Assembly (NCBI GenBank): GCA_016867235.1
Contig: VGJY01000013.1
Location: 1-41,083 of the forward strand
Direction of reading: 5' to 3'
Length of the DNA stretch: 41,083 nucleotides
Source of the DNA: Candidatus Tanganyikabacteria bacterium
GTDB taxonomy: Bacteria > Cyanobacteriota > Sericytochromatia > S15B-MN24 > VGJW01
A program made the position numbers and the translations under genes. The notes below the pieces were generated by a model that was not told the origin of the DNA, made no database searches, and saw only the letters and a program-made list of their open reading frames with translations. Below, in pieces: positions 25,858 through 41,083 of this stretch. Position 1 is the first letter of the stretch. Each line of letters begins with the position of its first letter.

Positions 25858-26595
25858 CTACCTCGTTGCCTTGTCTAGTCGCGAGAAGAACTGCCGGATG
25901 ACGGGCTCCCGCGACGCAAGTATCTCGCGCCTGTGGCCCATCGCGAGCATGCGGCCTTCGTGCAGCATGCCCACCCGGTCGGCGATGCGCACGGTACTCT
26001 CGAGATCGTGGCTGATCACCAGGAACGTCCTCCCGCCACCCCGCATTTCCAGGATCAGCTGGTCGATGGCGTCGGCCATGACCGGATCGAGGCCGCTCGT
26101 GGGTTCGTCGAAGATCACCAGTTCGGGATCCAGGGCGATCGCCCGGGCTATACCCACGCGCTTGCGCATGCCGCCCGAGAGCTCCGCGGGCATCAGCGGC
26201 GCGGCGTCCGGCAGGCCCACGCGATCGAGCTTCTCCCGCACGATGCGCCGGATCTCGGTCTCCGGGAGCGCCAGGTGGCGCCGGATCGGGAACGCGACGT
26301 TCTCGCCCACGGAGAGGGAATCGAACAGCGCTCCGTCCTGGAAGCACATCCCCACCTTCTCGCGGACCTTGTACAGCTCGCGCTCGGACAGGGCCGAAAG
26401 TTCGACGTCGTTCAGAAACACCGCGCCGCTATCCGGCCGCAGGAGCCCGATGCACAGCTTGGCGAACACCGATTTGCCCGTGCCCGAGGGCCCGAGTATC
26501 ACGGTCGTCATGCCGCGCTCGATGCGGGTGGAGACGTCGGCGATGACCGGCGCGCCGCGATCGAACGACTTGGTCAGGCGCTCGGTGCGGATCAC
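25858..26595 (-). CDS. MlaF-family ATPase of the Mce lipid transporter
   Basis: A 245-residue ABC ATPase. The GTG start at 26595-26593 overlaps the upstream permease stop by four bases (GTGA). Walker A is GPSGTGKS, the signature ELSGGMRKRVGIARAI, and Walker B LVIFDEPTSGLDPV; GMRKR after the signature and the loop FQDGALFDSLSVGENV are characteristic of the MlaF/Ttg2A group. H-loop VISHDLEST is present. It powers lipid movement by the MlaE permeases at the inner membrane. It lies between the mlaE and mlaD genes, as in other Mla operons. Confidence 0.95.
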   Translation of the reverse strand: MIRTERLTKSFDRGAPVIADVSTRIERGMTTVILGPSGTGKSVFAKLCIGLLRPDSGAVFLNDVELSALSERELYKVREKVGMCFQDGALFDSLSVGENVAFPIRRHLALPETEIRRIVREKLDRVGLPDAAPLMPAELSGGMRKRVGIARAIALDPELVIFDEPTSGLDPVMADAIDQLILEMRGGGRTFLVISHDLESTVRIADRVGMLHEGRMLAMGHRREILASREPVIRQFFSRLDKATR

Positions 26596-27302
26596 CGGTA
26601 GAACGCCTCCGAGAGCAGGTAGTTGGCGACGACGATCGCCAAGGTGGTCCGGACCATCCCGCGCGTGATGGCCAGGGACACTCCCCGGGGGCCGCCGGCC
26701 GCCCGGTACCCCTGGTAGGCCGAGATCAACCCCGCAAGCCCCCCGAACACCACGACCTTGAGCATTCCGCACAGCAGGTCCCGGACACCCGTGAACCGCG
26801 TGAGATCGGCCATGTAGGTCGAGGACGCCACGCCGAGCGCGCCGACCGCCGTGACGTACGACGCCAATATCGCGGCGACGTCGGCGAACACCAGCAGCGG
26901 CGGGGCCGCCAGGACCAGGGCGAGTACCCGCGGGCCCAGCAGGTGGCGGAAGGGATCGACGCCCATGACCTCGAGGGCGGCTACCTGCTCCGACGCGCGC
27001 ATGGTGGCGATCGCCGCGGTCAGCGCGGTACCGGGCTTGGCGGCGATCATCGCTCCGGTCAGGAGGGGGGCCAGCTCGCGCAGGGCGACCAGGCCGGCGT
27101 ACGAGCCGATCATGGCCTGCGTGCCCAGCGAGAGGAAGGCGTGATGGCCCATGAGCGTGGCGATGCTGCCGATCATCGCGGCGACCAGGAGGACCGGGGC
27201 CAGGGTCTCGAGACAGGTGCGCCGGAACTGGCGCCAGGTCTCCGGGGCCTCCGGCGGCGCGGCGGGCGAGAGCAGGCGCAAGGCAAACGCCGCGAGGGTC
27301 AT
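26592..27302 (-). CDS. MlaE-family permease, second copy
   Basis: A 236-residue inner-membrane permease. Start ATG at 27302-27300 overlaps the previous stop by four bases (ATGA). Diagnostic MlaE segments are SYAGLVALRELAPLLTGAMIAAKPGTALTA's core (LRELAPLLTGAMIA), MRASEQVAALEVMGVDPF, and PRVLALVLAAPPLLVFAD. The helix-loop-helix MGVDP contacts the ATPase. The usual Arg of the GR motif is replaced by KPG. Together with the adjacent MlaE-like protein it could form a heterodimer instead of the standard homodimer. The frame is open far upstream but the upstream gene supplies the true boundary. Confidence 0.92.
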   Translation of the reverse strand: MTLAAFALRLLSPAAPPEAPETWRQFRRTCLETLAPVLLVAAMIGSIATLMGHHAFLSLGTQAMIGSYAGLVALRELAPLLTGAMIAAKPGTALTAAIATMRASEQVAALEVMGVDPFRHLLGPRVLALVLAAPPLLVFADVAAILASYVTAVGALGVASSTYMADLTRFTGVRDLLCGMLKVVVFGGLAGLISAYQGYRAAGGPRGVSLAITRGMVRTTLAIVVANYLLSEAFYR

Positions 27303-27973
27303 GACTGCACCCGCAACAGCACCGTGGTCAGGGCCGCCTCGGCGGCCGCGACCACCACGATGCTCTGCACGATCGCCGCATTGACCGCCCGGCCCACGCC
27401 TTCGGCCCCGCCGCGGGCGCGCATGCCGTGGAAGCACGACAGCAGACCGCACAGGAAACCGAAGATCCCGGCCTTCCAGATGGCCTCGGCTACGGCCGCG
27501 GGCGAGATCTGCGCCGCGAGGCCGGCCAGGAATGGACCGGCCGAGGCACCGTGGACGAACACCGCGCCCAGGTAGCCGCTGCCGAGCGCCGCCACGGCGC
27601 CCAGGCCGGCGGCGATGGGCGCCACGACGGTCAGGGCGACGACCCGCGGAACGACCAGGAAGCGTACGGGATCCACGCCCATCGCCCGCAGGGCGGCCTC
27701 TTCCTCGGTCACCTGCATCGCCCCGAGTTCGCCGGCGAAAGCGGTGCCTATCTGCGCGGCGAGCATGAGGGCCGACATCGTGGGGGCCATGTCGCGAACG
27801 GTGACCTGCGCCAGCATGCCCGACAGCAGCCGATCCGCGCCGAACATCTGGAGCACCCACACCCCCTGGAGCGCCGCGATGCCGCCGATGGTCGCCATCA
27901 TGACCACGACCGGGAGCAACGCCTGGGGCGAACCGGCCAGGCGCAGCGCCCGCAAGGTCTCCCGCCACTCCAC
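27299..27973 (-). CDS. MlaE-family permease, first copy
   Basis: A 224-residue permease starting at GTG 27973-27971, preceded by GGAGG about nine bases upstream and two bases after the glcE-like stop. MlaE features: TVRDMAPTMSALMLAAQIGTA, ELGAMQVTEEEAALRAMG, VDPVRFLVVPRVVAL. The GAMQV-EEEAALRAMG segment is the conserved coupling helix. It differs substantially from the next permease, so this is an old duplication. A pair of different permeases is consistent with a heterodimeric MlaE core. The immediate upstream gene encodes a GlcE-like oxidoreductase, an unusual partner. Confidence 0.92.
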   Translation of the reverse strand: MEWRETLRALRLAGSPQALLPVVVMMATIGGIAALQGVWVLQMFGADRLLSGMLAQVTVRDMAPTMSALMLAAQIGTAFAGELGAMQVTEEEAALRAMGVDPVRFLVVPRVVALTVVAPIAAGLGAVAALGSGYLGAVFVHGASAGPFLAGLAAQISPAAVAEAIWKAGIFGFLCGLLSCFHGMRARGGAEGVGRAVNAAIVQSIVVVAAAEAALTTVLLRVQS

Positions 27974-27975
27974 GG

Positions 27976-29085
27976 TCAGATCCTCCCCGGGCCCCGCCCC
28001 GGGGCCAGGATCCCGTCCGGGTCGAACACGCCCTTCATCCGGCGCGCCAGCTCCCACTCGGGCCGCGGCGGCCCGAAGACGTCCTCTCCGGCGGGGCCGC
28101 GCTCCACGACGAGCCAGCCGCCAACCGCCGACACGGCCGCCCGCCAGGCGGCGATCGAGGCGTCAGGGCCGCCCTCGCCCGCCAGCGGCACCACCCGGGC
28201 GATCCCGGCGCCCAGGTGGGCGTGGACGCGCTCGAACGGCAAGGTCCCGAGCAGGGAGACCAGCCGGTCGGGCAACGCGCCGATGCGCACGACGAGCGGC
28301 TCCGCAAAGGCCGGGGCCGGCGGCTCGGCCTGCCACTCGGTTCCCGGATGGCTCTCGCGCTCCCCCGCGAACCGGGCGATCTGGGAAGCGACGTCTTCCC
28401 GGTAGCCCTCGCAGCCCACCTCGACGACCAGGTCCCCCGCCCCGTGCAGGTCGCACCAGGCTGCGCCGGCCGCCAGGGCCGCCTGCCGGACCTCCTCGAC
28501 CTCGGAGAGGTTCGTGCGGGGCATACGAGCCACCGCGATCTCCTCGGGGAGCGGCGCTACCTTGAACGACACCTCGGTGAGAACGCCGAGCGAGCCGCGG
28601 CTCCCGCAGAACAGCTTGCACAGGTCGTAGCCGGTGACGTTCTTGACCACCTTGCCGCCCGCCCGCAGTACCTTCGCGGTCCCGGCCACCGCCTGGAAGC
28701 CTACGAGCCAGTCGCGGGGCGTTCCGCAAGTCGACCGGCGCTTGCCGGCCGTCGCCGCCGCCACGACGCCGCCGGCCGTGGCGCCGGGCGGCGCTTCGAG
28801 CGGCAGCCGTTGCCCGAAGCCGGCGAGGAACTCCTGGATCGCCGCAAGCTCCGTCCCGGCGCCGACAGTGAGCACCAGGTCGGCAGGCGAGTAGTCGCCG
28901 ACCGGTCCGGCCATGCGCGAGGTCTCGACCACCAGGTCGCAACGCCGGGGCGGGTTGCCGATGTGCGCTTCCGTGCCGCCGCCGACCGCCAGGACACCCT
29001 GGCCGCCGCGCATCGCCTCGTGCAGGACGAACGAGAGTTCCTCGGCGCCGCTCGGCGCCAGAGTGTGGACCGCCTCCAGGTTCAT
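27976..29085 (-). CDS. GlcE-like FAD-binding oxidase subunit
   Basis: A 369-residue cytoplasmic protein with the FAD-binding PCMH fold typical of glycolate oxidase subunit E. The ATG at 29085-29083 overlaps the GlcD stop by four bases. Motifs: GVLAVGGGTEAHIG, ADLVLTVGAGTELAAIQEFL, PPGATAGGVVAAATAGKRR and GGKVVKNVTGYDLCKLFCGS, all characteristic of GlcE. The C-terminal DVFGPPRPEWELARRMKGVF and FDPDGILAPGR match the family end. With GlcD it would oxidise glycolate or another 2-hydroxy acid. The third subunit GlcF (iron-sulphur) is absent from this operon, so electrons may pass elsewhere. Confidence 0.93.
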   Translation of the reverse strand: MNLEAVHTLAPSGAEELSFVLHEAMRGGQGVLAVGGGTEAHIGNPPRRCDLVVETSRMAGPVGDYSPADLVLTVGAGTELAAIQEFLAGFGQRLPLEAPPGATAGGVVAAATAGKRRSTCGTPRDWLVGFQAVAGTAKVLRAGGKVVKNVTGYDLCKLFCGSRGSLGVLTEVSFKVAPLPEEIAVARMPRTNLSEVEEVRQAALAAGAAWCDLHGAGDLVVEVGCEGYREDVASQIARFAGERESHPGTEWQAEPPAPAFAEPLVVRIGALPDRLVSLLGTLPFERVHAHLGAGIARVVPLAGEGGPDASIAAWRAAVSAVGGWLVVERGPAGEDVFGPPRPEWELARRMKGVFDPDGILAPGRGPGRI

Positions 29086-30503
29086 ACCGGCGCCGCCCGG
29101 CGGTGCAGCAACCCGACCTCGATGCAGGACCGCTGCGGCAGGATCTTGCCCGGGTTCATCCGGCCCGCCGGATCCCACGCAGCCCGGACGGCCTCCTGCG
29201 CCGCCAGATCGTCCGGTGAGAACATGAGCGCCATCTGGCCGATCTTCTCGATGCCTATGCCGTGCTCGCCGCTCAGCGTGCCGCCCAGGCGCACGCACAG
29301 CGTCAGGATCTCGGCACCCGCCGCCAGTACGCGGTCCACCTCGTCGGCGTCGCGATCGTCGAAGAGGGCCACCGGGTGCAGATTGCCGTCGCCGGCGTGG
29401 AAGACGTTGGCGATGCGGATGCGATAGCGGGCGGCGATCTCGGCGATGGCGCGCAGCACCTCCGGCAGGCGCGTCGGCGGGATAACGCCGTCCTGGGTGC
29501 AATGCGCCGGCGCATACCGCCCCAGCGCGCCGATGGCCTTCTTGCGACTCTTCCACAGCGTCTGCCGCTCGGCTTCGTCGCGGGCGACGCGCACTTCCCT
29601 GGCGCCCGCGCCCCGCAGCACCGAGACGCACAGGTCGGCGACGCGCGGCAGTGCCGGTGCCGCGCCGTCGATCTCGACGATGAGCACGGCGGCCGCGTCG
29701 AGGGGGAAGCCGAAGCCGAACGCCGCCTCGACGGCCTGGATCACCGTGTGGTCCATCATCTCGAGCGCCGCCGGCACCACGCCGGCGCGGATAACGCTCG
29801 CCACCGCCGCCGAGGCCGCGTCCACCGAATCGAACACGCCCAGCATCGTGCGGACGCCTTCGGGAAGGGGAATCAGCCGCACGATCGCCTCGGTCACGAT
29901 CCCGAAGGTTCCCTCGCTCCCGACGAAGGTCCCGACCAGATCCAGGCCCGGCATGTCCTCGACCGTGCCGCCAAGCGCGAGTACCTCTCCGTCGCCGCGC
30001 ACCACCGTGACGCCGAGCACGTGGTTCACCGTGACGCCGTACTTGAGCGTATGGGGCCCGCCGGAATTCTCCGCGACGTTGCCGCCGATGGTGCACGCGA
30101 ACTGGCTGGAGGGATCGGGCGCGTAACACAGCCCGGATGCCTTGACGGCCTCCGACAGCTTCGCGTTTACCACCCCGGGCTGGACGGTCGCCCGGCGATT
30201 GGCGACGTCGACCGCGAGGATGCGCTTCATGCGCGCCGTGCCGACCAGCACGCCGCCCGTGACGGCCATCCCGCCACCCGACAGCCCGGTTCCCGCACCG
30301 CGCGGCACTATCGGCATGCCGTGGCGCGACGCGATGCGGCAGATTTCCGCGACCTCGCCGGTGGACTCGGGAAGCACCACGACGTCGGGCCGCCCCTTGG
30401 CGACCGTGAACGCGTCGCAATCGTAGGCCAGCAGGTCGGCCGGTGCGTGCAGAACCCGCTCGCGGCCGAGCAACGCAAGGAACTCAGGCGTCGCGGGGTG
30501 CAT
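29082..30503 (-). CDS. GlcD-like FAD-binding 2-hydroxyacid oxidase subunit
   Basis: A 473-residue FAD enzyme of the GlcD/D-lactate dehydrogenase family. ATG at 30503 overlaps the upstream membrane-protein gene by 20 bases; a GTG two codons earlier is also possible. FAD-binding segments: IVPRGAGTGLSGGGMAVTGG, CTIGGNVAENSGGPHTLKYG, VGSEGTFGIVTEA. Substrate/FAD domain motifs: VFHAGDGNLHP and SGEHGIGIEKI, with their conserved histidines. Likely reaction: oxidation of glycolate or D-lactate to the 2-oxo acid, with FAD. Related FAD enzymes act on other 2-hydroxy acids, so the substrate is not certain. It is co-transcribed with GlcE and the Mce transporter, which is not the standard glc context. Confidence 0.94.
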   Translation of the reverse strand: MHPATPEFLALLGRERVLHAPADLLAYDCDAFTVAKGRPDVVVLPESTGEVAEICRIASRHGMPIVPRGAGTGLSGGGMAVTGGVLVGTARMKRILAVDVANRRATVQPGVVNAKLSEAVKASGLCYAPDPSSQFACTIGGNVAENSGGPHTLKYGVTVNHVLGVTVVRGDGEVLALGGTVEDMPGLDLVGTFVGSEGTFGIVTEAIVRLIPLPEGVRTMLGVFDSVDAASAAVASVIRAGVVPAALEMMDHTVIQAVEAAFGFGFPLDAAAVLIVEIDGAAPALPRVADLCVSVLRGAGAREVRVARDEAERQTLWKSRKKAIGALGRYAPAHCTQDGVIPPTRLPEVLRAIAEIAARYRIRIANVFHAGDGNLHPVALFDDRDADEVDRVLAAGAEILTLCVRLGGTLSGEHGIGIEKIGQMALMFSPDDLAAQEAVRAAWDPAGRMNPGKILPQRSCIEVGLLHRRAAPV

Positions 30504-31221
30504 CGGCACGCTGCGGCGCCTGCGCGCCCTCGAGGACGGCCACGCCCAGGATGACGCCCCAGAGGCTCCAGAGCGCATTGAACGATGCCAGGCCGGCGAC
30601 GCCGATGCCGACCAGCCAGAGGCCGATGAGCGTGCCGCCGAAGCGCGCCGCGCCGCTCGCCCGCTCGGGATCCCCGGTGCTGCGGCGAAGGATGGCGGAA
30701 AGCACCCTTCCGGCGTCGAGGGGCGCGCCCGGGAGGAGGTTGAGCACCGCAAGCGACGAGTTGACGATGGCGAGCATGTCCAGCACGGCCCGGGTCGGCA
30801 GGAAATTGGGTATCTGCGGCTGCAAGCCGAACGAGAGCCCCAGGCATATCATCGCGAGGCCCATGTAGATGGCCGGCCCGCAGAAGGCCGAGACAATCTC
30901 GGCGCGGATGGCGGCGGGATCCGTCGAGCCGTCATCGGTGAATTGCCAGCCGCCGCAGGGGCCGATGACGACACGGTCGGGCAAGCGGGCTCCCAGCAGG
31001 CGGGCCGCGGCCACCGCAAGGACCTCGTGGATCAGGATGGAGCCCACGACCAGGAACGTGGCGCCGACGGCCATGTACCGGTAGGTGACGTCGGGAAAGC
31101 CCACGTGGGAGCGAGGGAAGTTCCAGGTGAGCGACCACCACAGGAAGACCGTCCAGAGAGCGAACAACGGCGGCACCGCCAGTGGAATGCCACCCAAGCG
31201 CCCGATTTCCCAGCCTCTCAT
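30484..31221 (-). CDS. Site-2-protease (M50)-like membrane protein with degenerate active site
   Basis: A 245-residue membrane protein with about five or six hydrophobic segments. The N-terminus GWEIGRLGGIPLAVPPLFALW is typical of M50/S2P proteins. The zinc motif should read HExxH; here it is IHEVLAVAAA, with the second His replaced by Ala. The other zinc-ligand motif is largely kept: NLLPGAPLDAGRVL, with the Asp, while GG has become AG. It is therefore probably not an active zinc protease, though it retains the fold. It is the first gene of the minus-strand operon and overlaps glcD by 20 bases. Possible role: membrane scaffold or regulator, inferred. Confidence 0.85.
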   Translation of the reverse strand: MRGWEIGRLGGIPLAVPPLFALWTVFLWWSLTWNFPRSHVGFPDVTYRYMAVGATFLVVGSILIHEVLAVAAARLLGARLPDRVVIGPCGGWQFTDDGSTDPAAIRAEIVSAFCGPAIYMGLAMICLGLSFGLQPQIPNFLPTRAVLDMLAIVNSSLAVLNLLPGAPLDAGRVLSAILRRSTGDPERASGAARFGGTLIGLWLVGIGVAGLASFNALWSLWGVILGVAVLEGAQAPQRADAPRDA

Positions 31222-32009: not shown

Positions 32010-33227
32010 ATGTCCCCCCTCACGGAACTGGCTGAAATCCCCACCGTCCTGGCCGCCCTCCGCGCCGGGCAAATCATCGTGGTCGTCGACGACGAGGACC
32101 GGGAGAACGAAGGCGATCTCATCGTGGCGGCCGAACACGCCACGCCCGAGACGATCAACTTCATGGCCACCCACGGCCGCGGCCTCGTCTGCCTCGCGAT
32201 GACGGCCGAACGGGGCAAGGAACTGGGCCTCGAGCTCATGGTGCCGGCGCCCCGCGACCACAACGGCACCGCCTTCACGGTGTCCGTGGACGCCGTCGAG
32301 GGCGCGACCACCGGAATCTCGGCAAGCGACCGGGCTCGGACGGTGCAGGTCTGCATCGATCCGCTCGCCCGGCCCGAGAGCCTACGGCGGCCCGGCCACA
32401 TCTTCCCGCTGATCGCCAAGCAGGGGGGCGTGCTGTCGAGAGCCGGCCACACCGAGGCGGCCGTCGATCTCGCTCGTCTGGCCGGTTGCTACCCGGCGGG
32501 CGTGATCTGCGAGGTCCTCAAGCCCGACGGCGAGATGGCGCGGTTGCCGGATCTCGTCGAATTCGCCAACGAGCATGGTTTGCTCGTCACGTCGGTCGCG
32601 AAGGTCATCGCCCATCGCATCGGCAGCGAACGCTTCGTCGTGCGCAGGCAATCGGCCAACTTGCCCACCCGGTTCGGCGAGTTCACGATCGTCGGCTACG
32701 AGAACGTCATGACCGGGACCGAGCACGTCGCCCTGGTCAAGGGCGATCCGTCGCAACCCGGCGTGCTGGTGCGCATGCATTCCGAGTGCCTCACCGGCGA
32801 TGCCCTGGGTTCGCTGCGCTGCGACTGCGGCCAGCAGCGCGATCGGGCGCTGGAGGCCATCGCCCAGGCCGACCACGGCGTCTTCGTCTACCTGCGCGGC
32901 CTCTGCGCCGGGGAAGGGCGCGGCATCGGCCTGCTGAACAAGATCCATGCGTACAATCTGCAGGATCAGGGCCTGGATACCGTCGAGGCCAACCAGCGGC
33001 TCGGCTTCCCGCCGGATCTGCGGGACTACGGCCAGGGAGCGCAGATACTCGTCGATCTGGGCATCACCTCGATGCGGCTCCTGACCAACAACCCCCGCAA
33101 GGTCGTGGCTCTCGAGGGCTACGGCCTGGAAGTCGCCGATCGGGTGCCGATCAAGGCCGAGCGAAACAGCTACAACGCGCACTACCTGGAAGTCAAAGCC
33201 GAGAAGCTGGGGCACCTGCTGTCATGA
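32010..33227 (+). CDS. ribBA: Bifunctional DHBP synthase/GTP cyclohydrolase II (RibBA)
   Basis: A 405-residue fusion catalysing the two entry steps of riboflavin synthesis. The N-terminal DHBP synthase domain (about 1-205) converts ribulose 5-phosphate to 3,4-dihydroxy-2-butanone 4-phosphate; its acidic metal site is [10 protein letters not shown] and the second site [16 protein letters not shown]. The C-terminal GTP cyclohydrolase II domain has its zinc cysteines in [20 protein letters not shown] and the catalytic [11 protein letters not shown] segment. Both look complete. The ATG follows ribE by 20 bases, and its end overlaps ribH by four bases (ATGA). Confidence 0.97.
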
Positions 33228-33774: not shown

Positions 33775-34638
33775 ATGCCGATCTCGTCCCGGAATATCCG
33801 CTCCGCTCTGCGAGTGGCTCTCCCGCTAGCGGTAGCGGTGGCCGCCGTCTCGGTGATGAGCGGCTGCCCGACACCGACCCCGACGACGCCGGTGGACACA
33901 TCCGGCGACTCCGGGCCGGCCGCGACGGGTACGCCGACGCCCAGGCCCACCGTAACCGCCAGGCCCGCCGGCACCGGCACGCCCACCCCGGAAGCCGTGC
34001 TCACGCCGCGCACGACCTTTACGTCGGCGCCGCAGGCGACGCTCGCCCCTTCGGGGTTCTTCGCCGAAGCCACCCCGACGCCGCCGCCCAAGACGCCTCC
34101 CCCCTTCGAGAACATCGGCATCGAATTGTTCCAGGGGGCCACCAGCAGCTCGCCGTTCGCCAACAACGCGTTCCGCATCCGCAACGACGACAGCTCCGCC
34201 GACACGCCCGACTTGCCGACCAGGCGCACCTACACGGCGTTCCAGATGAAGGGCTTCAAGACCGAGCGCGAGGGGTTCCTGCCCGGCAAGTACGCCACCG
34301 ACAGCGTGAAAGTCGTCTGGACCATCAGCGCGGCCAAGGTCGAGCACACCAATGTCGCCCTGAACACCCTGCCCACGCTCAAGGTGTTCTTCCGCGAGGG
34401 CGGAGTCGCCACGGATACGGTGCGAAACGCCAGCACGGTTAGCGTCGAGACGGCCACCGTGAGCTCGGGCGTCCTCCTGACCCTGACGGCGACGGTGTCC
34501 ATCTCGACGGATTCGACCGCGGTGGGCACGCCGGCCACGGACAGCGCGGCGATCCTCGCGTCCAACGAAGGGAAAGCCGAGTTCGTGGTCGAGACGCTCG
34601 ATAGACGGCGTAACCGGCCGGTGAGGTTGGTGCCATGA
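33775..34638 (+). CDS. Secreted lipoprotein with Thr/Pro linker, unknown
   Basis: A 287-residue protein. GAGG ten bases upstream supports ATG 33775. The signal peptide ends in the lipobox VMSGC near residue 31. A long Thr/Pro/Ala linker follows (GTPTPRPTVTARPAGTGTP) to about residue 105. The C-terminal 180 residues form alternating strands rich in Val, Thr and Ser (KVVWTISAAKVEHTN, TLKVFFREGGVATD, LLTLTATVSISTDS), suggesting an adhesion-like beta sandwich. No named family. It overlaps the next gene's upstream ATG by four bases and is likely co-transcribed with the NHL-repeat lipoprotein. Confidence 0.75.
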   Translation: MPISSRNIRSALRVALPLAVAVAAVSVMSGCPTPTPTTPVDTSGDSGPAATGTPTPRPTVTARPAGTGTPTPEAVLTPRTTFTSAPQATLAPSGFFAEATPTPPPKTPPPFENIGIELFQGATSSSPFANNAFRIRNDDSSADTPDLPTRRTYTAFQMKGFKTEREGFLPGKYATDSVKVVWTISAAKVEHTNVALNTLPTLKVFFREGGVATDTVRNASTVSVETATVSSGVLLTLTATVSISTDSTAVGTPATDSAAILASNEGKAEFVVETLDRRRNRPVRLVP

Positions 34639-34652
34639 GCCAGGTGATCGCG

Positions 34653-37613
34653 ATGAAGAAACTACTTTCCGGGCGCCACCTCGCACAGGCCGTCGTGGCC
34701 GCGGGCCTGGCCCTGCTCGTCGGTTGCCACCTGCCGGTGCCGGGCCGCGGCTCCGCGGTCGCCAGCCGGGCGAACCTGCCCGACGTGGTCCCCGCCGCGT
34801 TCGACCGCTCCGTCGAGACGAAAGGCGAGGGGATCATCCTCGAGATCGAGAAGGGGGCTCCGTTGGGGAGCGCGGATCGTGCGGTGGCGCCACCGGAAAC
34901 GGCGGACGCCGGGGCGCCGCAGCTTCCCGAGGCGCTGGTGGGCAAGCCGTACGGCGGCGTCACGGTCGCCATCAAGTGGCCGCAGATCAAGACCGGCCCG
35001 TACCGCACGCAGGTCATCCCCGCGTCGGCCAAGTCCATCCGCATCCGGGTCGTCGGCAGCGACGGCACCGATCGCCTGGCCGTCATGTTCTTCCGCGACG
35101 AGTCGTCGAGCAACTCGCTGGTGCAGCGCCAGACCTTCTTCCTGCCGGTCGAACCCGGCCTGCTGGTCGAGGCCCGCGCATACGAGGCGACCCGGGCCGG
35201 CCTGACCGAGGTGGCGGCCGACAAGCGCGCCAAGTTCAACCCCGCGGCCTTCAAGCACTACGACATGGCGAGCTATCGGGTCCTGGCGGAGGGCTTCGCC
35301 TTCAACCAGCAGATCGTCCTCCTCAAGGAGACCCGCATCAAGGTCGATCTCGACACCAGCCAGCTCGTGGCGGGCATCGGCGGCCAGCCGGGCATCTCGG
35401 CAGGCGGCGACCCGTACTTCAACAATTTCGTCAGCCGCGCCAGGTTCGCCGAGCTGTGGTCGCCGGCCTTCGTCCACTTCGATCCCTACGCCAGGCGGCT
35501 CTTCTGGGTCGAGTTCCCCGTTTTCAAGACGGTGCCCGATCCCAAGGAGCGCGACATCGTCCGGATGCTGACGCCGGCTGGCGTCACCGGCACCGAGAAT
35601 CCCGGAGTGCTGGTCTGGTCGGTCGGCGGCGACCGCATCATCGAGCGCAACGGCGACAACAACCCGCCCGATTGCGCGGAAATCAAGAACGTCACCAGCC
35701 TGTCGTGGTCCGGCCGGGGTGGCGGCTCGCTCTACATCGCGCAGACCGGCAATTCGGGCTTCCTTAGCAGCGTGCGCAAGCTGTCTCCGGCCAGCGGCGC
35801 CGGCCGGATGGGCTCCATCACGGAGTTCCGTGCCGACAGCAGCACCAGCCGGAACTTCCCGAACGTTTCGGCGGCGATCGATCCTGGATTGAACAGCGGC
35901 GACGACGTCTTCACGGTCGACACGATCGGCAAGCGCGCGATGATCAGCCGGAGCGAGTCGCCATTCCCCATCCTCCTGGGTGGCGGCACGGTGTCGGTGG
36001 AGGCGACGAGCAGCACGTCGACCGAGGCGGCGCTGCTGACTGATCCGCGCGCGATCGCCGGCAAGAGCAAGGACGATTTCGCGATCATCAACGGCAACAC
36101 GGTCGTGCGCGCCGTGGGGACCCTCGCCCGGATCAAGGCCGGGGGCGGCACGAATCCGGCCAACAATACCGTGGGCGTGGCCAACGTTCCCGCGAGTGCC
36201 GTAGCACTGGGCACCCTGATCGACATCGAGTACGATCCCGTGAACCTATCGTCCGGCGGGCCCGTGGCGTACGTCGCAGCCAGCGATGCCGTCTGGCGGT
36301 TGCAACTTGGCGCCGCGCTGACCGCCGACGCGACCGCCACCCTGATCGCCTCCTACTCGGCGGCGATCGGCGTCCGATCCATCGCGACCGATCCCGACGG
36401 CAACGCGGTCTACGTCCTCAAGTCCAGCGGCAAGATCGACAAGATATCGAGCGCGGCGGGCACACCGGCCCTGGCCGAGTTGCCGATCACCGCGTTCAGC
36501 AACTCGACGGCCATCGCGGCGGGAAGCGGCACCGGCGGGGACACGATCTTCGTCGCCAGCCTGGCGCCGGGCTCCGCGGCCCAGATCATCTCGTCGTTCC
36601 GGGAAGACGCGACCAGCCAGACAAGCGTCACAACGCTCTTCGGCCAGGTCGACCGAAACGAACTGTCGGTCGGCGACTGCACGGATTTCGTGGGCCAACT
36701 CAACGTCGGCGGCAACCCCGTCTCCGCCGCCACGTTCCGGATCACCGGCTCGGGCGGCGAGGATCCGGAGGGTGCCGCCAACCTCACCAAGCCTTCCTGG
36801 CTGGCGAGCGACAAGTTCGGCTACCTCTACATCTCCGACACCGGCAACAACCGGATCCGGCGCGTGCACTTCAACGACAACCACGCACCGGACAACATCG
36901 TGTCGCTGGTGACGGCCAAGAACCTCGATTCAAAGCCTGCGCGGCTGGACGCCCCGCAGGGTGTGGACGCCGACGAGTACGGCAACGCCTTCATCTGCGA
37001 CACCAATACCCACCAGATCGTGGTCTGGCGCCCGTGCGACAAGCCATTCACGTACGACCGGGGCCTGCTGAACATCGCCGGCACCGGCAAGAACGGCCTC
37101 AACTTCGACAACATCAACGCTCGCCTGGTGCAGCTCAACGGGCCGAAAGCCGTGCGCGTTGAGCAGAACCCCAAGGGGAACCCGAGCCGGCGGCGCGTGT
37201 ACTTCATCGACCAGGGCAAGCGCATCCGCATGCTCACACCCCGCAACCTGGGTACTACCCAGCCGGCCCTGGCCAGCCGCACGGCAGGCAGCGTGTGCCC
37301 GTCGAACGACGATTACTTCGACTACATCATCTCGACGATTGCCGGCGCGGGGAGCGAGAACCCCGATCTCAACGTCAACGCGGCCAACGTCGCCCTCGAG
37401 GCCCCGGTGGACCTCGCGGTGGACAGCGCCGGGTACGTGTATGTGGCGGACGGCTCCAAGGTCCGCCGCATCGACCCCATAGTCGGCTCGATCTCCACGA
37501 TCTACCGGGCGCCGAACGCCCTGACTAGCATCTCGATCGACGCGGCGACCAAGGAGCTCTACTTCACGATGCAGAACTCGGTGTCGATCAGGAAGGTGTT
37601 CCTGGGTGAGTGA
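34653..37613 (+). CDS. Large lipoprotein with NHL-type beta-propeller repeats
   Basis: A 986-residue secreted protein. I choose ATG 34653 because AGGTGA lies five bases upstream and MKKLLSGRHL starts a compact signal peptide ending in the lipobox LLVGC; an ATG at 34635 in the same frame overlaps the previous stop and is an alternative. After an unclassified region (about 30-250) the protein is dominated by propeller-like repeats: SDKFGYLYISDTGNNRIRRV, DADEYGNAFICDTNTHQIVV, DSAGYVYVADGSKVRRID. These are NHL repeats, usually protein- or ligand-binding. Several copies have Gly-Tyr/Phe-Val-Asp strands. Probably a surface-exposed binding protein; ligand unknown. Confidence 0.85.
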   Translation: MKKLLSGRHLAQAVVAAGLALLVGCHLPVPGRGSAVASRANLPDVVPAAFDRSVETKGEGIILEIEKGAPLGSADRAVAPPETADAGAPQLPEALVGKPYGGVTVAIKWPQIKTGPYRTQVIPASAKSIRIRVVGSDGTDRLAVMFFRDESSSNSLVQRQTFFLPVEPGLLVEARAYEATRAGLTEVAADKRAKFNPAAFKHYDMASYRVLAEGFAFNQQIVLLKETRIKVDLDTSQLVAGIGGQPGISAGGDPYFNNFVSRARFAELWSPAFVHFDPYARRLFWVEFPVFKTVPDPKERDIVRMLTPAGVTGTENPGVLVWSVGGDRIIERNGDNNPPDCAEIKNVTSLSWSGRGGGSLYIAQTGNSGFLSSVRKLSPASGAGRMGSITEFRADSSTSRNFPNVSAAIDPGLNSGDDVFTVDTIGKRAMISRSESPFPILLGGGTVSVEATSSTSTEAALLTDPRAIAGKSKDDFAIINGNTVVRAVGTLARIKAGGGTNPANNTVGVANVPASAVALGTLIDIEYDPVNLSSGGPVAYVAASDAVWRLQLGAALTADATATLIASYSAAIGVRSIATDPDGNAVYVLKSSGKIDKISSAAGTPALAELPITAFSNSTAIAAGSGTGGDTIFVASLAPGSAAQIISSFREDATSQTSVTTLFGQVDRNELSVGDCTDFVGQLNVGGNPVSAATFRITGSGGEDPEGAANLTKPSWLASDKFGYLYISDTGNNRIRRVHFNDNHAPDNIVSLVTAKNLDSKPARLDAPQGVDADEYGNAFICDTNTHQIVVWRPCDKPFTYDRGLLNIAGTGKNGLNFDNINARLVQLNGPKAVRVEQNPKGNPSRRRVYFIDQGKRIRMLTPRNLGTTQPALASRTAGSVCPSNDDYFDYIISTIAGAGSENPDLNVNAANVALEAPVDLAVDSAGYVYVADGSKVRRIDPIVGSISTIYRAPNALTSISIDAATKELYFTMQNSVSIRKVFLGE

Positions 37614-37625
37614 GGCGGCGCCTCG

Positions 37626-38069
37626 TCACTCTTCCTCTTCTTCGTCGTCGAAGTAGACCTCGGCGAGGGAATCTCCGAACAGGCTTGTCACCCGCCCGCC
37701 CGCGAAGGACTCCTCGTGCGCGGCCGGCGGGCGCTCCAGCACGGGCGTGTCGGCGGGGATCAGGCGAATGGTGCGGTTGCGGTTGACCAGGTCGAAGACG
37801 GTCTGCCCGCCATCCACGCCGAGGCGCATGTACTCGAAGTTGTTGACATTGAGGTACAGGCGGCGATTGGCGATGATCGTGCTGCTGCTGTAGTTGGCCA
37901 CGACGCTGGTGACATAGCCGTCTCCCGACGTCCGGACGCGCTCGTCGTACATGTCGACGTACCGCACCAGACCCAGATCCCGCAGCACCCGCACGATGTC
38001 GCGCCGGTTGAGCAGGATCCCCTCCTCGACGATGCACTGCAACTGAGATTCGTGATCCCGATCCTGCAT
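37626..38069 (-). CDS. Small acidic-tailed hypothetical protein
   Basis: A 147-residue cytoplasmic protein of unknown family. ATG at 38069 follows GGAGAGG at a short spacing. An N-terminal helix region (IVEEGILLNRRDIVRVLRDL) precedes beta-like stretches (GDGYVTSVVANYSSSTIIA, RRLYLNVNNFEYMRLG, TVFDLVNRNRTIRLI). The C-terminus ends in FDDEEEEE, a strongly acidic tail. No cysteines beyond one near the start and no signal peptide. It converges with the NHL lipoprotein gene 13 bases away and is divergent from the subtilisin gene across a 163-base region. Confidence 0.65.
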   Translation of the reverse strand: MQDRDHESQLQCIVEEGILLNRRDIVRVLRDLGLVRYVDMYDERVRTSGDGYVTSVVANYSSSTIIANRRLYLNVNNFEYMRLGVDGGQTVFDLVNRNRTIRLIPADTPVLERPPAAHEESFAGGRVTSLFGDSLAEVYFDDEEEEE

Positions 38070-38167
38070 TTTCCTCTCCTGTAGGCCAGACGGGGATCAT
38101 AGCACCCGGCGGAACCCGACTTCCCGCCAAATGGTCAATCCAGCCGCTAAGTTTGGTGAACGTCCCC

Positions 38168-38196
38168 TTGCAAATAACCCTCTCTTAACTTAGAGT
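38168..38196 (+). promoter_or_regulatory. Candidate promoter of the subtilisin gene
   Basis: TTGCAA at 38168-38173 (five of six -35 bases) is followed after 17 bases by TAGAGT at 38191-38196 (four of six -10 bases). An imperfect inverted repeat (ATAACCCTCT ... AGAGTTAT) covers the -10 and could be a regulator site. The region is AT-rich against the surrounding GC-rich DNA. Confidence 0.45.
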
Positions 38197-38220
38197 TATC
38201 CTGTTGTTTAAGTTTTTACC

Positions 38221-38226
38221 GGAGGG
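38221..38226 (+). promoter_or_regulatory. Ribosome binding site GGAGGG choosing ATG 38233
   Basis: GGAGGG abuts the first ATG (38227) but is six bases before the second (38233), which is therefore the better start. It removes two residues from the longer reading. Confidence 0.7.
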
Positions 38227-38232
38227 ATGCGA

Positions 38233-39507
38233 ATGAAGAACCGGCTAGGAATCGCCCTCATCGCGGCGTCGCTCGCGGGTTGCGGCGTCATGCCCCGCTC
38301 GGGCCCGCAGGCCGCGACCGGCGATACCCTGGGTGCGCAAGGCGCCCGGCCGGATGCCCTGGTGCCCGGCGAGATCATCGTCGGCGCCAGGCCACAGGAT
38401 GGCCGCCTGGCCCTGGGCGGCATCGCCCTCCTGGGTGGAGAGTTGCAAGCGACTTTCACGCTCACCAATACGCACTACGTCGTGAAGGTGCCGCGTGGCA
38501 CCACGACCGACCAGGCGCTCGCCAAGGCGCGGAGCCTGCCCGGAGTGGCCTACGCCGTGCCTAACCGCGTATTCAAGGTGAGCCTTCCCGCGCCCGACCA
38601 GACCGCCTCCGACGCCCTGGAAGCGCTCGAGGCCCTCAACGACCCGTTCTTCGGGCAACAGTGGGCCTTCAAGCGGACCGGTACGCCCGCCAACTGGGAG
38701 CGCATCGACGCGACCCGGACCCTGGTGGCCGTGGCCGACACGGGCGTCGACGACCGGCATCCCGATTTCGGGGGCCGGGTCCGGCGCGGGAAGAACTTCG
38801 CCAACGGCACCGACGACACGATGGACCGCTACGGTCACGGCACGCACGTCGCCGGCATCACCGCCGCGACCGGCAACAACGGCATCGGCATGGCCGGCGT
38901 GGTCTGGAATGCGCCGATCCTCGCGATCAAGGTCCTGGGCGACAACGGGTCGGGCACGACCCAGGGAGTGGCCGAAGGCATGAAGTACGCCGCCGACCAG
39001 GGCGCGAAGGTGCTCAACATGAGCCTCGGCTCGGACACCAGCGAAATCGACCCGGTCATGCACGACGCCCTCCAGTACTGCCTCAACCGTGGAACGATCG
39101 TGATCTGCGCCGCCGGCAACAGCAGCGGCGCGATCGGCTCGCCGGCCAACGACCCGCTGGCCGTAGCCGTCACGAGCACGAGCAACTATCCGATCATCGG
39201 CGAGAAGATCAGCTACTTCTCGAGCCGCGGTCCCAATTCCTGGGTGGCGGCACCCGGCGACGGCATCATGAGCACCCTCCCGTCCGGCGGCAGCAACATG
39301 GGCACCAACTACGGCAAGGCCAGCGGCACGTCGATGGCGTGCCCGTTCGTGGCCGGCACCGCCACCGCGATGCGGGCCCTGCACCCCGACTGGTCGGCGG
39401 ATCAGGTCCGCGCCAAGCTCAAGGACTCCGTGGACGATCTGGGCGCCAAGGGCCGCGACAACAACTACGGCTGGGGCCGGGTCAACCTCGCCAGAGCCGC
39501 CAACTGA
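38233..39507 (+). CDS. Subtilisin-like serine protease (S8) lipoprotein
   Basis: A 424-residue secreted protease. The signal peptide MKNRLGIALIAASLAGC contains the lipobox SLAGC. Residues about 35-120 resemble an I9-type propeptide (GEIIVGARPQDGRLALGG, VVKVPRGTTTDQALAKARSL). The S8 triad is intact: Asp169 in VAVADTGVD, His202 in RYGHGTHVAG and Ser367 in SGTSMACPF, with an oxyanion-region Asn in ICAAGNSS. Lipid anchoring would hold the enzyme at the envelope surface. Substrate unknown. A strong hairpin terminator follows at 39527. Confidence 0.95.
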   Translation: MKNRLGIALIAASLAGCGVMPRSGPQAATGDTLGAQGARPDALVPGEIIVGARPQDGRLALGGIALLGGELQATFTLTNTHYVVKVPRGTTTDQALAKARSLPGVAYAVPNRVFKVSLPAPDQTASDALEALEALNDPFFGQQWAFKRTGTPANWERIDATRTLVAVADTGVDDRHPDFGGRVRRGKNFANGTDDTMDRYGHGTHVAGITAATGNNGIGMAGVVWNAPILAIKVLGDNGSGTTQGVAEGMKYAADQGAKVLNMSLGSDTSEIDPVMHDALQYCLNRGTIVICAAGNSSGAIGSPANDPLAVAVTSTSNYPIIGEKISYFSSRGPNSWVAAPGDGIMSTLPSGGSNMGTNYGKASGTSMACPFVAGTATAMRALHPDWSADQVRAKLKDSVDDLGAKGRDNNYGWGRVNLARAAN

Positions 39508-39526
39508 CGGCTGCCAACAATGGCAA

Positions 39527-39558
39527 GAGGCCCGGGCGGTGTGGATCGCCCGGGCCTC
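39527..39558. terminator. Bidirectional hairpin terminator between converging genes
   Basis: GAGGCCCGGGCG and CGCCCGGGCCTC form a perfect 12-base stem with an eight-base loop, between the stops of the subtilisin gene (+) and the small lipoprotein gene (-). There is no strong T-run on either side, so its effect on termination is likely but not certain. Confidence 0.7.
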
Positions 39559-39596
39559 GAAGCAGGTTGGGGGTTGGGGGGTTTGGGGATGAAAAC

Positions 39597-40169
39597 CTAG
39601 TACGGCAGGGAACCGCCGCCGGTGCCGCCGGCGCCGGGGGTCGTCGCCCCGGGCAGCGTGGAGCCCGACGGATAGCCGCCGCCCATCGCGGGCGTCGTGC
39701 CGGCCGAAGAATTGCTGGTCGCGTAGACCGTGACGTCATCGGAGGTCTTGGTCGCCTTGACCTCGATGGTCTTGTTCTCGCCGGGGCCCAGGTCGACCGT
39801 CTGGGTCTGCGTCTCGACCGAGGAGCCGCCCTTCGAGAAGGTGATGGTGAGGGTCGCCGAAACCTGCTTCGGGTTCGGGTTGGTCACCGCGATGGTCGCC
39901 TTGACCTTCTTGAACCAGAACAGGAAGCCGCCCGACTTGCCCTTGTCCTGCACCGTGGCCGTCACCGGCTGCTCGGGCTGCGGGGTGGGCGCGACCGGCG
40001 TGGTGGGCATTCCGGCGCCCGGATCGGTCGGCGTCGTCGGCAGCGTGGGCTCGGTAATCGCGCCGGTGTCGGAGCCGGGATCCACGCCCATGTCGTTGCG
40101 CGACCCACAGCCAGCCAGAAGCAGCGTGACGGCGATAACGCTCGCTGCGGCTACTTTCCGGTTGAACAT
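39597..40169 (-). CDS. Small secreted lipoprotein A (paralogue pair), unknown
   Basis: A 190-residue lipoprotein. GGGAGGG lies about eight bases before ATG 40169. The signal peptide ends in the lipobox LLAGC at residue 21. A Thr/Pro linker (about 35-70) precedes a 75-residue beta domain with FLFWFKKVKATIAVTNPNP, then TFSKGG and TQTVDLGPGENKTIEVKATK. A Gly/Pro-rich tail follows. The domain is shared with the lipoprotein at 40366-40914, in the same order with the same key positions: a F/W-rich start, VTNP, FxKGG, the TQT segment, then LG. No known family; probably an extracellular beta sandwich. A 14-base palindrome lies about 115 bases upstream. Confidence 0.78.
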   Translation of the reverse strand: MFNRKVAAASVIAVTLLLAGCGSRNDMGVDPGSDTGAITEPTLPTTPTDPGAGMPTTPVAPTPQPEQPVTATVQDKGKSGGFLFWFKKVKATIAVTNPNPKQVSATLTITFSKGGSSVETQTQTVDLGPGENKTIEVKATKTSDDVTVYATSNSSAGTTPAMGGGYPSGSTLPGATTPGAGGTGGGSLPY

Positions 40170-40283
40170 TGCGGATTACCCTCCCTTGAACCTCTTACTC
40201 AATATGCTTAACAGTATTTGGACAGCTGGCCTCGGGATCTTGCGCATCCGAGTTAAAGGTACTCCGAAGGTAGGTTTAAGCTT

Positions 40284-40297
40284 TGGGAGCGCTCCCA
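40284..40297. promoter_or_regulatory. Perfect 14-base palindrome TGGGAGCGCTCCCA, CelR/CebR-like operator
   Basis: TGGGAGCGCTCCCA is identical to the operator bound by the LacI-family regulators CelR (Thermobifida) and CebR (Streptomyces), which control cellulose and cellobiose genes. It lies between the terminator of the downstream lipoprotein gene and the start of lipoprotein A (-), so it most likely belongs to that promoter. A second hairpin, CCAGCC-CCGA-GGCTGG at 40295-40310, overlaps it. A LacI gene is not seen in this window, so the match alone is not proof. Confidence 0.4.
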
Positions 40298-40320
40298 GCC
40301 CCGAGGCTGGCCCATGAAAG

Positions 40321-40346
40321 CGGCCCGGACCGTGCGGTCCGGGCCG
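40321..40346 (-). terminator. Strong hairpin terminator of small lipoprotein B
   Basis: CGGCCCGGACC and GGTCCGGGCCG form a perfect 11-base stem around a four-base loop (GTGC on the + strand), 20 bases after the lipoprotein B stop. In the minus-strand direction it is followed by CTTTC, a short weak T-rich tail. Confidence 0.75.
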
Positions 40347-40365
40347 AGGAGATCTGGCTTGCGGC

Positions 40366-40914
40366 CTAGCGGCCGTAACTCAGGTTGGTCCCGGGAGCGG
40401 CGGCGGCGCCCGGTGCCGGGGCCGGGGCGGCGACCGGCGGATTGGTCGTCACTCCCAGGGTGGCGGCGTCGGGATTGCTCTTCTTCGCCTCGAAGTGCAG
40501 CGTCTGGGTCTGGTTGGTGCCCAGCGTCACCTCCCGCGTCTGGTCGTCGCCGGTGGGCGTGCCGCCCTTGGTGAAGGAGACCTTGACGGTGCCCGAGAGG
40601 GTCAAAGCCGTCGGGTTGGTGACCATGACGTCGACCGCCGGCTTGTCCCACCAGCCGAAGAGCACGCCCTTCTTGAATGCCTGCTGCGAGACCTGGAGTT
40701 CCGGCGTGGGCGTCGGCACGACCGGCGTGGGCGCGGGCGTCGGCGCGACGGATGCCGTGGCGGCGGGCGTCGGCGTGGGCTTGGCCGCCGGAGGCGGCGT
40801 CACGTTCGGGTCGCCGTCGGGGCCGACCCGCGTGCCGCAACCGGCCGAAAGGCTGACGAAGAGCGCCCCTGCCACCATGATGGCTGGGATGAAGGGGATG
40901 TGCTTTCCGCTCAT
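40366..40914 (-). CDS. Small secreted lipoprotein B (paralogue pair), unknown
   Basis: A 182-residue lipoprotein. The signal peptide ends in the lipobox LSAGC at residue 26. A Thr/Pro linker (TPTPAATASVAPTPAPTP) runs to about residue 75, then the domain shared with lipoprotein A: QAFKKGVLFGWWDKPAVDVM, VTNPTALTLSGTVKVSFTKGG, TLGTNQTQTLHFEAKKS. A Pro/Ala tail ends the protein. The two genes are tandem but separated by a terminator and an operator-like palindrome, so each is probably separately controlled. The start ATG at 40914 lacks an obvious ribosome site (only GAGGA, 12 bases upstream). Confidence 0.75.
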   Translation of the reverse strand: MSGKHIPFIPAIMVAGALFVSLSAGCGTRVGPDGDPNVTPPPAAKPTPTPAATASVAPTPAPTPVVPTPTPELQVSQQAFKKGVLFGWWDKPAVDVMVTNPTALTLSGTVKVSFTKGGTPTGDDQTREVTLGTNQTQTLHFEAKKSNPDAATLGVTTNPPVAAPAPAPGAAAAPGTNLSYGR

Positions 40915-41083
40915 CGCTCGTCGGTCCTCTCTCTCGATCCTCTAGCTGCCTTCGCTATTTAGTACTTTCTGGCATCGAACGCCCCGATCCTTGCGAGGTT
41001 TTGGTTAAGGACCGCCGAAGGGAGAGGAAAGGATCGGCTAAATCTTGTGCGCACCCCGGCCGGGTATAACTCTCTCGTGGCGG

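Follow-up and report, generated by a model that had tools for sequence, protein, structure and literature searches.

Two FxLYD-like lipoproteins of a cyanobacterial relative belong to an order-specific Ig-fold family, one clade of which may serve an MCE lipid transporter

The window, meaning the whole 41,083-nucleotide stretch analyzed, is the complete contig C13 of a genome totaling 6.12 Mb in 514 contigs and carries two minus-strand genes, A and B, at exactly the positions originally predicted (Table 1). Both encode the same order of parts: a lipobox (LAGC in A, SAGC in B), a Thr/Pro linker of about 45 residues, a common domain, and a low-complexity tail. Lipoboxes were also found, by eye and by a simple pattern, in most family members, and the products are presumably lipidated. 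Whole-protein blastp aligned A with B at 35% identity over 164 columns (E 3e-23), a value obtained with the low-complexity filter off and to which the linkers contribute. The domains alone gave a BLOSUM62 local score of 117, compared with 29.7 +/- 5.7 for 5000 shuffles of B, the highest of which reached 64 (z 15.3), with 27 of 82 aligned columns identical. Each motif named beforehand, namely the F/W-rich start, VTNP, FxKGG, QT, and LG, was present, and the length expected for the domain, about 75 residues, had to be raised to about 85 on the basis of the profile. We conclude that A and B share a real domain in a common architecture.

Table 1. Coordinates of genes A and B, their parts, the flanking hairpins, and the mla-type operon of the window
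Feature	Position	Strand	Basis or remark
Gene A, lipoprotein, 190 aa	39597..40169	-	ORF; lipobox LAGC read from sequence; family member
A signal peptide and lipobox cysteine, residues 1-21	40107..40169	-	Sequence; weak signal-region matches only (LptM)
A Thr/Pro-rich linker, residues 22-68	39966..40106	-	Sequence
A FxLYD-like Ig domain	39711..39965	-	Profile E 2.7e-31 (profile includes A); AF2 pLDDT 85; fold matches
A Gly/Pro tail, terminal residue Tyr (39600-39602)	39600..39710	-	Tail survey
Gene B, lipoprotein, 182 aa	40366..40914	-	ORF; blastp to A
B signal peptide and lipobox cysteine (SAGC), residues 1-26	40837..40914	-	Sequence
B FxLYD-like Ig domain	40438..40698	-	Profile E 4.3e-25 (profile includes B); AF2 pLDDT 77; fold matches
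B Ala/Pro tail, ends YGR, not aromatic-terminal	40369..40437	-	Tail survey
11-bp GC hairpin downstream of B, upstream of A, no T-run	40321..40346	-	96-nt stretch z -1.6, not significant; not among the terminator scan results
12-bp GC hairpin between convergent A and subtilase gene ends	39527..39558	.	89-nt stretch z -5.2
mlaE permease 1	27299..28057	-	PF02405 5.1e-55; homolog directly follows A-type gene in six relatives
mlaE permease 2, start provisional	26592..27335	-	PF02405 3.9e-59
mlaF-type ABC ATPase, start provisional	25858..26655	-	PF00005 1.6e-29
mlaD, MCE domain, 334 aa	24849..25853	-	PF02470 3.3e-15, PF11887 3.3e-9

Expression of A and B as one operon is doubtful. The genes are separated by 196 nt and a GC hairpin, and although the terminator scan found no terminator there, the hairpin is a possible one, such that A and B may not share a transcript. 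A promoter scan of 37500-41083 gave no sigma-70-like candidate, and no tRNA was found in the window. Two plus-strand genes lie on the other side of A. One (38227-39507) converges on A across a strong GC hairpin and encodes a subtilase whose start is lipobox-like and whose prodomain is of the fervidolysin type. The other (34635-37613) encodes an NHL-repeat protein of 992 aa that begins like a lipoprotein; in a relative (G005:C86), a homolog lies two genes away from a lipoprotein of the family.

When A alone was used as the query, matches at E <= 0.001 were found in 10 of 59 related genomes, and these were the ten genomes of the same order (G000 to G009). A profile, A1, was built from 27 rows, with L022 (a fragment carrying an unknown base), the near-copies L013 and L020, and the nonfamily sequences L009 and L035 omitted; a local 28-row version that retains L022 was used for the lipobox and tail, gene-context, and G007/G008 operon readings. 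Profile A1 detected 53 places in the order, with 1 to 10 in each of the ten genomes, and two copies in one of eight other genomes of the class, and the family was absent from all others of 292 sampled genomes of the phylum, which was the furthest reach of the search. Scores within these 11 genomes are partly circular, as many profile rows were drawn from them, but the absence elsewhere is not. A scan of GTDB-based contigs with three close rows returned three loci, all in metagenome bins ("Cyanobacteria bacterium NC_groundwater_1444...", "bacterium isolate DBS2-1.bin124", and "bacterium isolate BP5.bin90"). Among 54 aligned domains, the Asn of VTNP was invariant, followed by an Asp before the last strand (48/54), the Phe of FxKGG (47/54), the Val before TN (46/54), and the turn Gly of FxKGG and the Leu of LG (44/54 each). 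One protein, G008:C500 (L085 7783-8733), carries two domain copies in a row, and at one of its two domain places the search reported that a stop codon interrupts the open frame. We conclude that, within the sampled phylum, the family is found almost exclusively in one order of uncultured cyanobacterial relatives.

The original prediction recognized no known family, and indeed neither A nor B gave a match above the cutoff to any characterized family in Pfam or NCBIfam. In Pfam, the subthreshold matches of A were mostly Ig-like and B had none. The statement was nevertheless too strong, as the family grades into FxLYD (NF038353). The NCBIfam FxLYD model matched 11 of the 27 profile domains (best E 4.8e-8), with A at 12.8 bits as a whole protein and 15.1 as a domain, below the cutoff of 23 bits, and B unmatched. 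Over the ten genomes, the cutoff was passed by two family members, G008:C219 (32.2 bits) and G007:C57 (24.1 bits), as well as at G008:C413, a place that the family profile does not list; the neighbor of G008:C219 scored 22.6 bits and reached 23 only together with its frame neighbors. Moreover, hhalign aligned profile A1 with ten cutoff-passing FxLYD regions at a probability of 86.1% (E 5e-6) over 51 columns and in the right register. Passage of the cutoff by some members and alignment of the profiles together place the family as a branch near FxLYD.

Like FxLYD, the domain is an Ig-like segment of roughly 70 residues with an Asn after the second strand, a turn Gly, L-x-PG, and an aromatic or hydrophobic strand. 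Unlike FxLYD, the family carries VTNP, has FxKGG where FxLYD has xLYDxxG, adds a hydrophobic loop, GxLLWKK, ahead of the second strand, and often has a Tyr-ended tail. Scattered Pfam matches across the 27 domains were strongest for CARDB (PF07705), which was not listed for A or B and matched seven domains at E<=1 (best 3.5e-5), and for LEA_2, which matched three (best 6.4e-5). The best PDB sequence match of the profile, a glucanotransferase Ig-like domain (5x7g, E 5e-4), was taken as a fold-level match only. A search of open-license literature found no paper mentioning FxLYD. We conclude, as judged from sequence, that the family is a new lineage-specific sister or sub-branch of FxLYD rather than a member of FxLYD as curated, and that its motifs, the rule for its tails, and its genomic association set it apart.

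The original prediction had proposed structure prediction as a check for an Ig-like sandwich, and one was found for both proteins. An AF2 model of A built from seven sequences was a six-stranded beta-sandwich (pLDDT 85.3, pTM 0.72), and that of B was similar (pLDDT 77.3, pTM 0.64). For both models the best fold match was the DUF1425 structure 3o0l, which Foldseek returned for A at E 1.1e-3 and TM 0.67 and which VIA-align superimposed at Z 9.5 for A (rmsd 2.2, 84 aligned) and Z 9.8 for B (rmsd 2.1, 86 aligned). Escherichia coli YcfL, annotated as a DUF1425 protein, is encoded next to lpoB and has a lipobox in its sequence. The next-best structures followed closely and were Ig-like domains of GH2 enzymes and transglutaminases, with many Ig-like chains at Z 8-9; the luminal domain of TMEM106B (8b7d) matched A at Z 7.8 (rmsd 2.5, 91 aligned). 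Because unrelated Ig domains scored just below DUF1425, the likeness to YcfL is one of fold only. Consistent with that interpretation, A and B had no DUF1425 match at E<=1 in Pfam, DUF1425 was not among the 25 families listed of the 51 matched by the 27 domains, and hhalign with E. coli YcfL gave 0.1%, in what is a weak, single-sequence comparison. None of the titles listed by a literature search on YcfL and DUF1425 concerned function. We conclude that an Ig-like beta-sandwich is well supported by the predicted models, and that the fold gives a structural class and says nothing of function.

The loop before the second strand was modeled at low confidence (block means of 63 in A and 54 in B) and is hydrophobic or aromatic at two positions in 91 to 92% of domains. 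In the alignment, the same loop carries two cysteines in G001 and G004. Its conservation makes this hydrophobic loop a plausible contact site.

A tree of 54 domains and 87 columns, from which the weakest place (G009:C22) was left out and in which many forks are weak, separated the two genes of the window. A fell in an 11-row clade (94/89), whereas B paired with the gene upstream of the A counterpart in G002 (100/97) inside another clade of 21 rows (99/98). In G001 and G004, the partner gene upstream is instead a more recent A-type copy. The tree rejects an origin of B by recent tandem duplication of A, and the idea that the pair forms an adaptive unit of two diverged tandem copies is not supported. 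A separate set of family genes occurs in G000, G001, G002, G005, and G006 at a locus that also encodes a small GTPase (Arf/Ras matches), a DUF4388 protein, and a kinase-TPR protein, as identified by Pfam in the G000 copies; the start of the GTPase presumably resembles MglA. At G000:C18 (L036 9443-10625), a tandem pair of tailless family lipoproteins lies beside these genes.

The A clade contains every one of the six family genes that adjoin mlaE. MlaE was found in all ten genomes of the order, and a tandem mlaE pair was found in nine (G000, G001, G002, G003, G004, G006, G007, G008, and G009). In six of the nine operons (G001, G002, G003, G004, G006, and G009), a gene of the A clade lies immediately 5' of mlaE-mlaE-mlaF-mlaD on the same strand, with 15 to 132 nt between its stop codon and the furthest possible mlaE start. 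These six cases span two families, and the genes further upstream differ between the two. The genes are not adjacent in G000, G007, or G008. In G007 and G008, no family domain was found within the 16 kb read around the operon, and the gene upstream is a long open reading frame that we take to resemble a CHASE2-cyclase. G005 has A-clade genes and no tandem mlaE operon, and most of the order's 53 copies lie away from mla. The operon of the window is on the same contig and strand as A at a distance of 11.5 kb. An FAD-oxidase gene (29082-30752) and a gene at 32010-33227 lie between A and mla in the window and beyond mla in G002, and their switched position fits separation of A from mla by local rearrangement. 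Models for MlaA and MlaC matched none of the ten genomes but did match in the E. coli and Caulobacter controls. No paper joining Sericytochromatia with MlaE was found, nor, among open-license papers, one that joined MCE, lipid transport, permease, Ig-like, and lipoprotein. We conclude that a conserved position directly before the mlaE-mlaE-mlaF-mlaD operon is shared by six members of the A clade.

The tails were surveyed in 53 family open reading frames. In 35 of them, the domain is followed by 9 or more residues, and the other 18 are classed as tailless. An aromatic residue ends 27 of the 35 tails (25 Tyr and 2 Phe), compared with 3.0 expected from the composition of those tails. A terminal Tyr or Phe was found in none of the 18 tailless frames, in 49 of 541 other called genes, and in 5 of 37 other lipobox-like genes, the latter having been picked by a simple pattern and including one fragment of a family gene. 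The associated P value of 5e-26 is too small, as the rows are related, but several separate branches show the preference. Four tailed members (G008:C321, the second copy of G007:C1, G008:C43, and G007:C32) have tails ending in Pro or Glu. A literature search combining C-terminal tyrosine with outer-membrane lipoproteins listed no title on such a tail. We conclude that family tails preferentially end in an aromatic residue.

Our tentative reading, which we regard as a serious possibility more than as a probable account, is that A and B are order-specific envelope lipoproteins and that the branch of A is an accessory of an MCE lipid transporter. An A-type protein would be anchored by its lipid at one membrane and reach into the periplasm on its linker, where the sandwich and the conserved hydrophobic loop (GG-F-L-F-W in A) might hold or dock the MCE complex, perhaps through MlaD or MlaE, or its lipid cargo. 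In so doing, the branch of A might do work done by MlaA and MlaC in Proteobacteria. The folds of MlaA and MlaC differ from the Ig-like fold of the family, and the possible common role would be that of an envelope component working with MlaFED. B and the remaining paralogs, one set of which lies beside the Ras/Arf-type GTPase and kinase locus, would use this module in other assemblies of the envelope. The most economical account is one FxLYD-like Ig module used for several envelope assemblies, with the clade of A serving the MCE transporter. Against an accessory role, the linkage may be one ancestral event retained by chance, A is not adjacent to the operon in the window, the G007 and G008 operons have no family gene nearby, G005 has A-clade genes but no such operon, most copies in the order lie elsewhere, and the Veillonella system described below functions with no lipoprotein of this kind.

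The original prediction of an adaptable surface module corresponds to an alternative in which these are general-purpose surface or adhesion lipoproteins, an Ig domain on a flexible stalk showing its binding face outside the cell and paralogs diversifying the targets. We consider this alternative unlikely. The number of paralogs per genome, the low-complexity stalk and tail, and the Ig-like fold all agree with it, but the core of the domain is conserved, not hypervariable, domains are single rather than arrayed (apart from the two-domain G008:C500), and one clade is tied to lipid-transport synteny. Linkage of the A clade to the MCE operon is the best signal from genomic context, and the surface module was not supported.

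A second alternative is that the adjacency is neutral, such that A-type genes precede mlaE by descent and are unrelated to lipid transport. Absence of the gene at two of nine operons, its displacement in the window, and the location of other clades elsewhere would fit neutrality, yet adjacency with short same-strand gaps has been kept across two families while the genes further upstream differ, and we judge neutrality to be unlikely.

A more specific form of the accessory reading, which we consider quite unlikely as a whole, is that A-type proteins are a previously unrecognized MCE transporter component in a diderm lineage without MlaA and MlaC. Here, the Ig loop would dock the MlaD helical tube or take lipid, and the Tyr tail would engage outer-membrane machinery, with nonhomologous parts closing the gap between the membranes. 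As described in PMC10665443, the MlaEFD-only system of Veillonella is likewise an MCE core without MlaA and MlaC, but its MlaD has a C-terminal beta-barrel and bridges the envelope itself, with no lipoprotein involved. By comparison, the operons described here carry a pair of mlaE genes, sequence inspection of the 334-aa MlaD showed no evident region for a barrel, and, in six relatives, a lipoprotein gene stands in front. PMC12436622 reports another MCE system believed to span both membranes.

The tails suggest a further alternative. PDZ domains and the BAM machinery recognize C-terminal aromatic ends. That the free aromatic end is the working part, read by a periplasmic receptor (a PDZ-type protease or sensor, or an outer-membrane assembly machine) with the lipoproteins as envelope-state reporters or tethers and the Ig domain as a spacer, is improbable, since the excess of aromatic ends, their absence from tailless frames, and their rarity in other lipobox-like genes are offset by the YGR end of B, the retention of the domain in tailless members, and the inflation of significance by related rows.

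The accessory reading of A bears on the diderm envelope more widely. According to PMC10665443, MlaABC is totally absent in diderm Terrabacteria, with which the lack of MlaA and MlaC matches in the ten genomes agrees, and the authors ask whether missing Mla components have been replaced by nonhomologous proteins. A-type proteins, members of a domain family that for A and B falls outside Pfam and NCBIfam cutoffs, are a testable candidate for such a replacement of the Mla lipoprotein and chaperone in diderms outside Proteobacteria. Moreover, the conserved C-terminal tyrosine on low-complexity tails offers another, independent way to approach how envelope proteins are targeted in these uncultured lineages.
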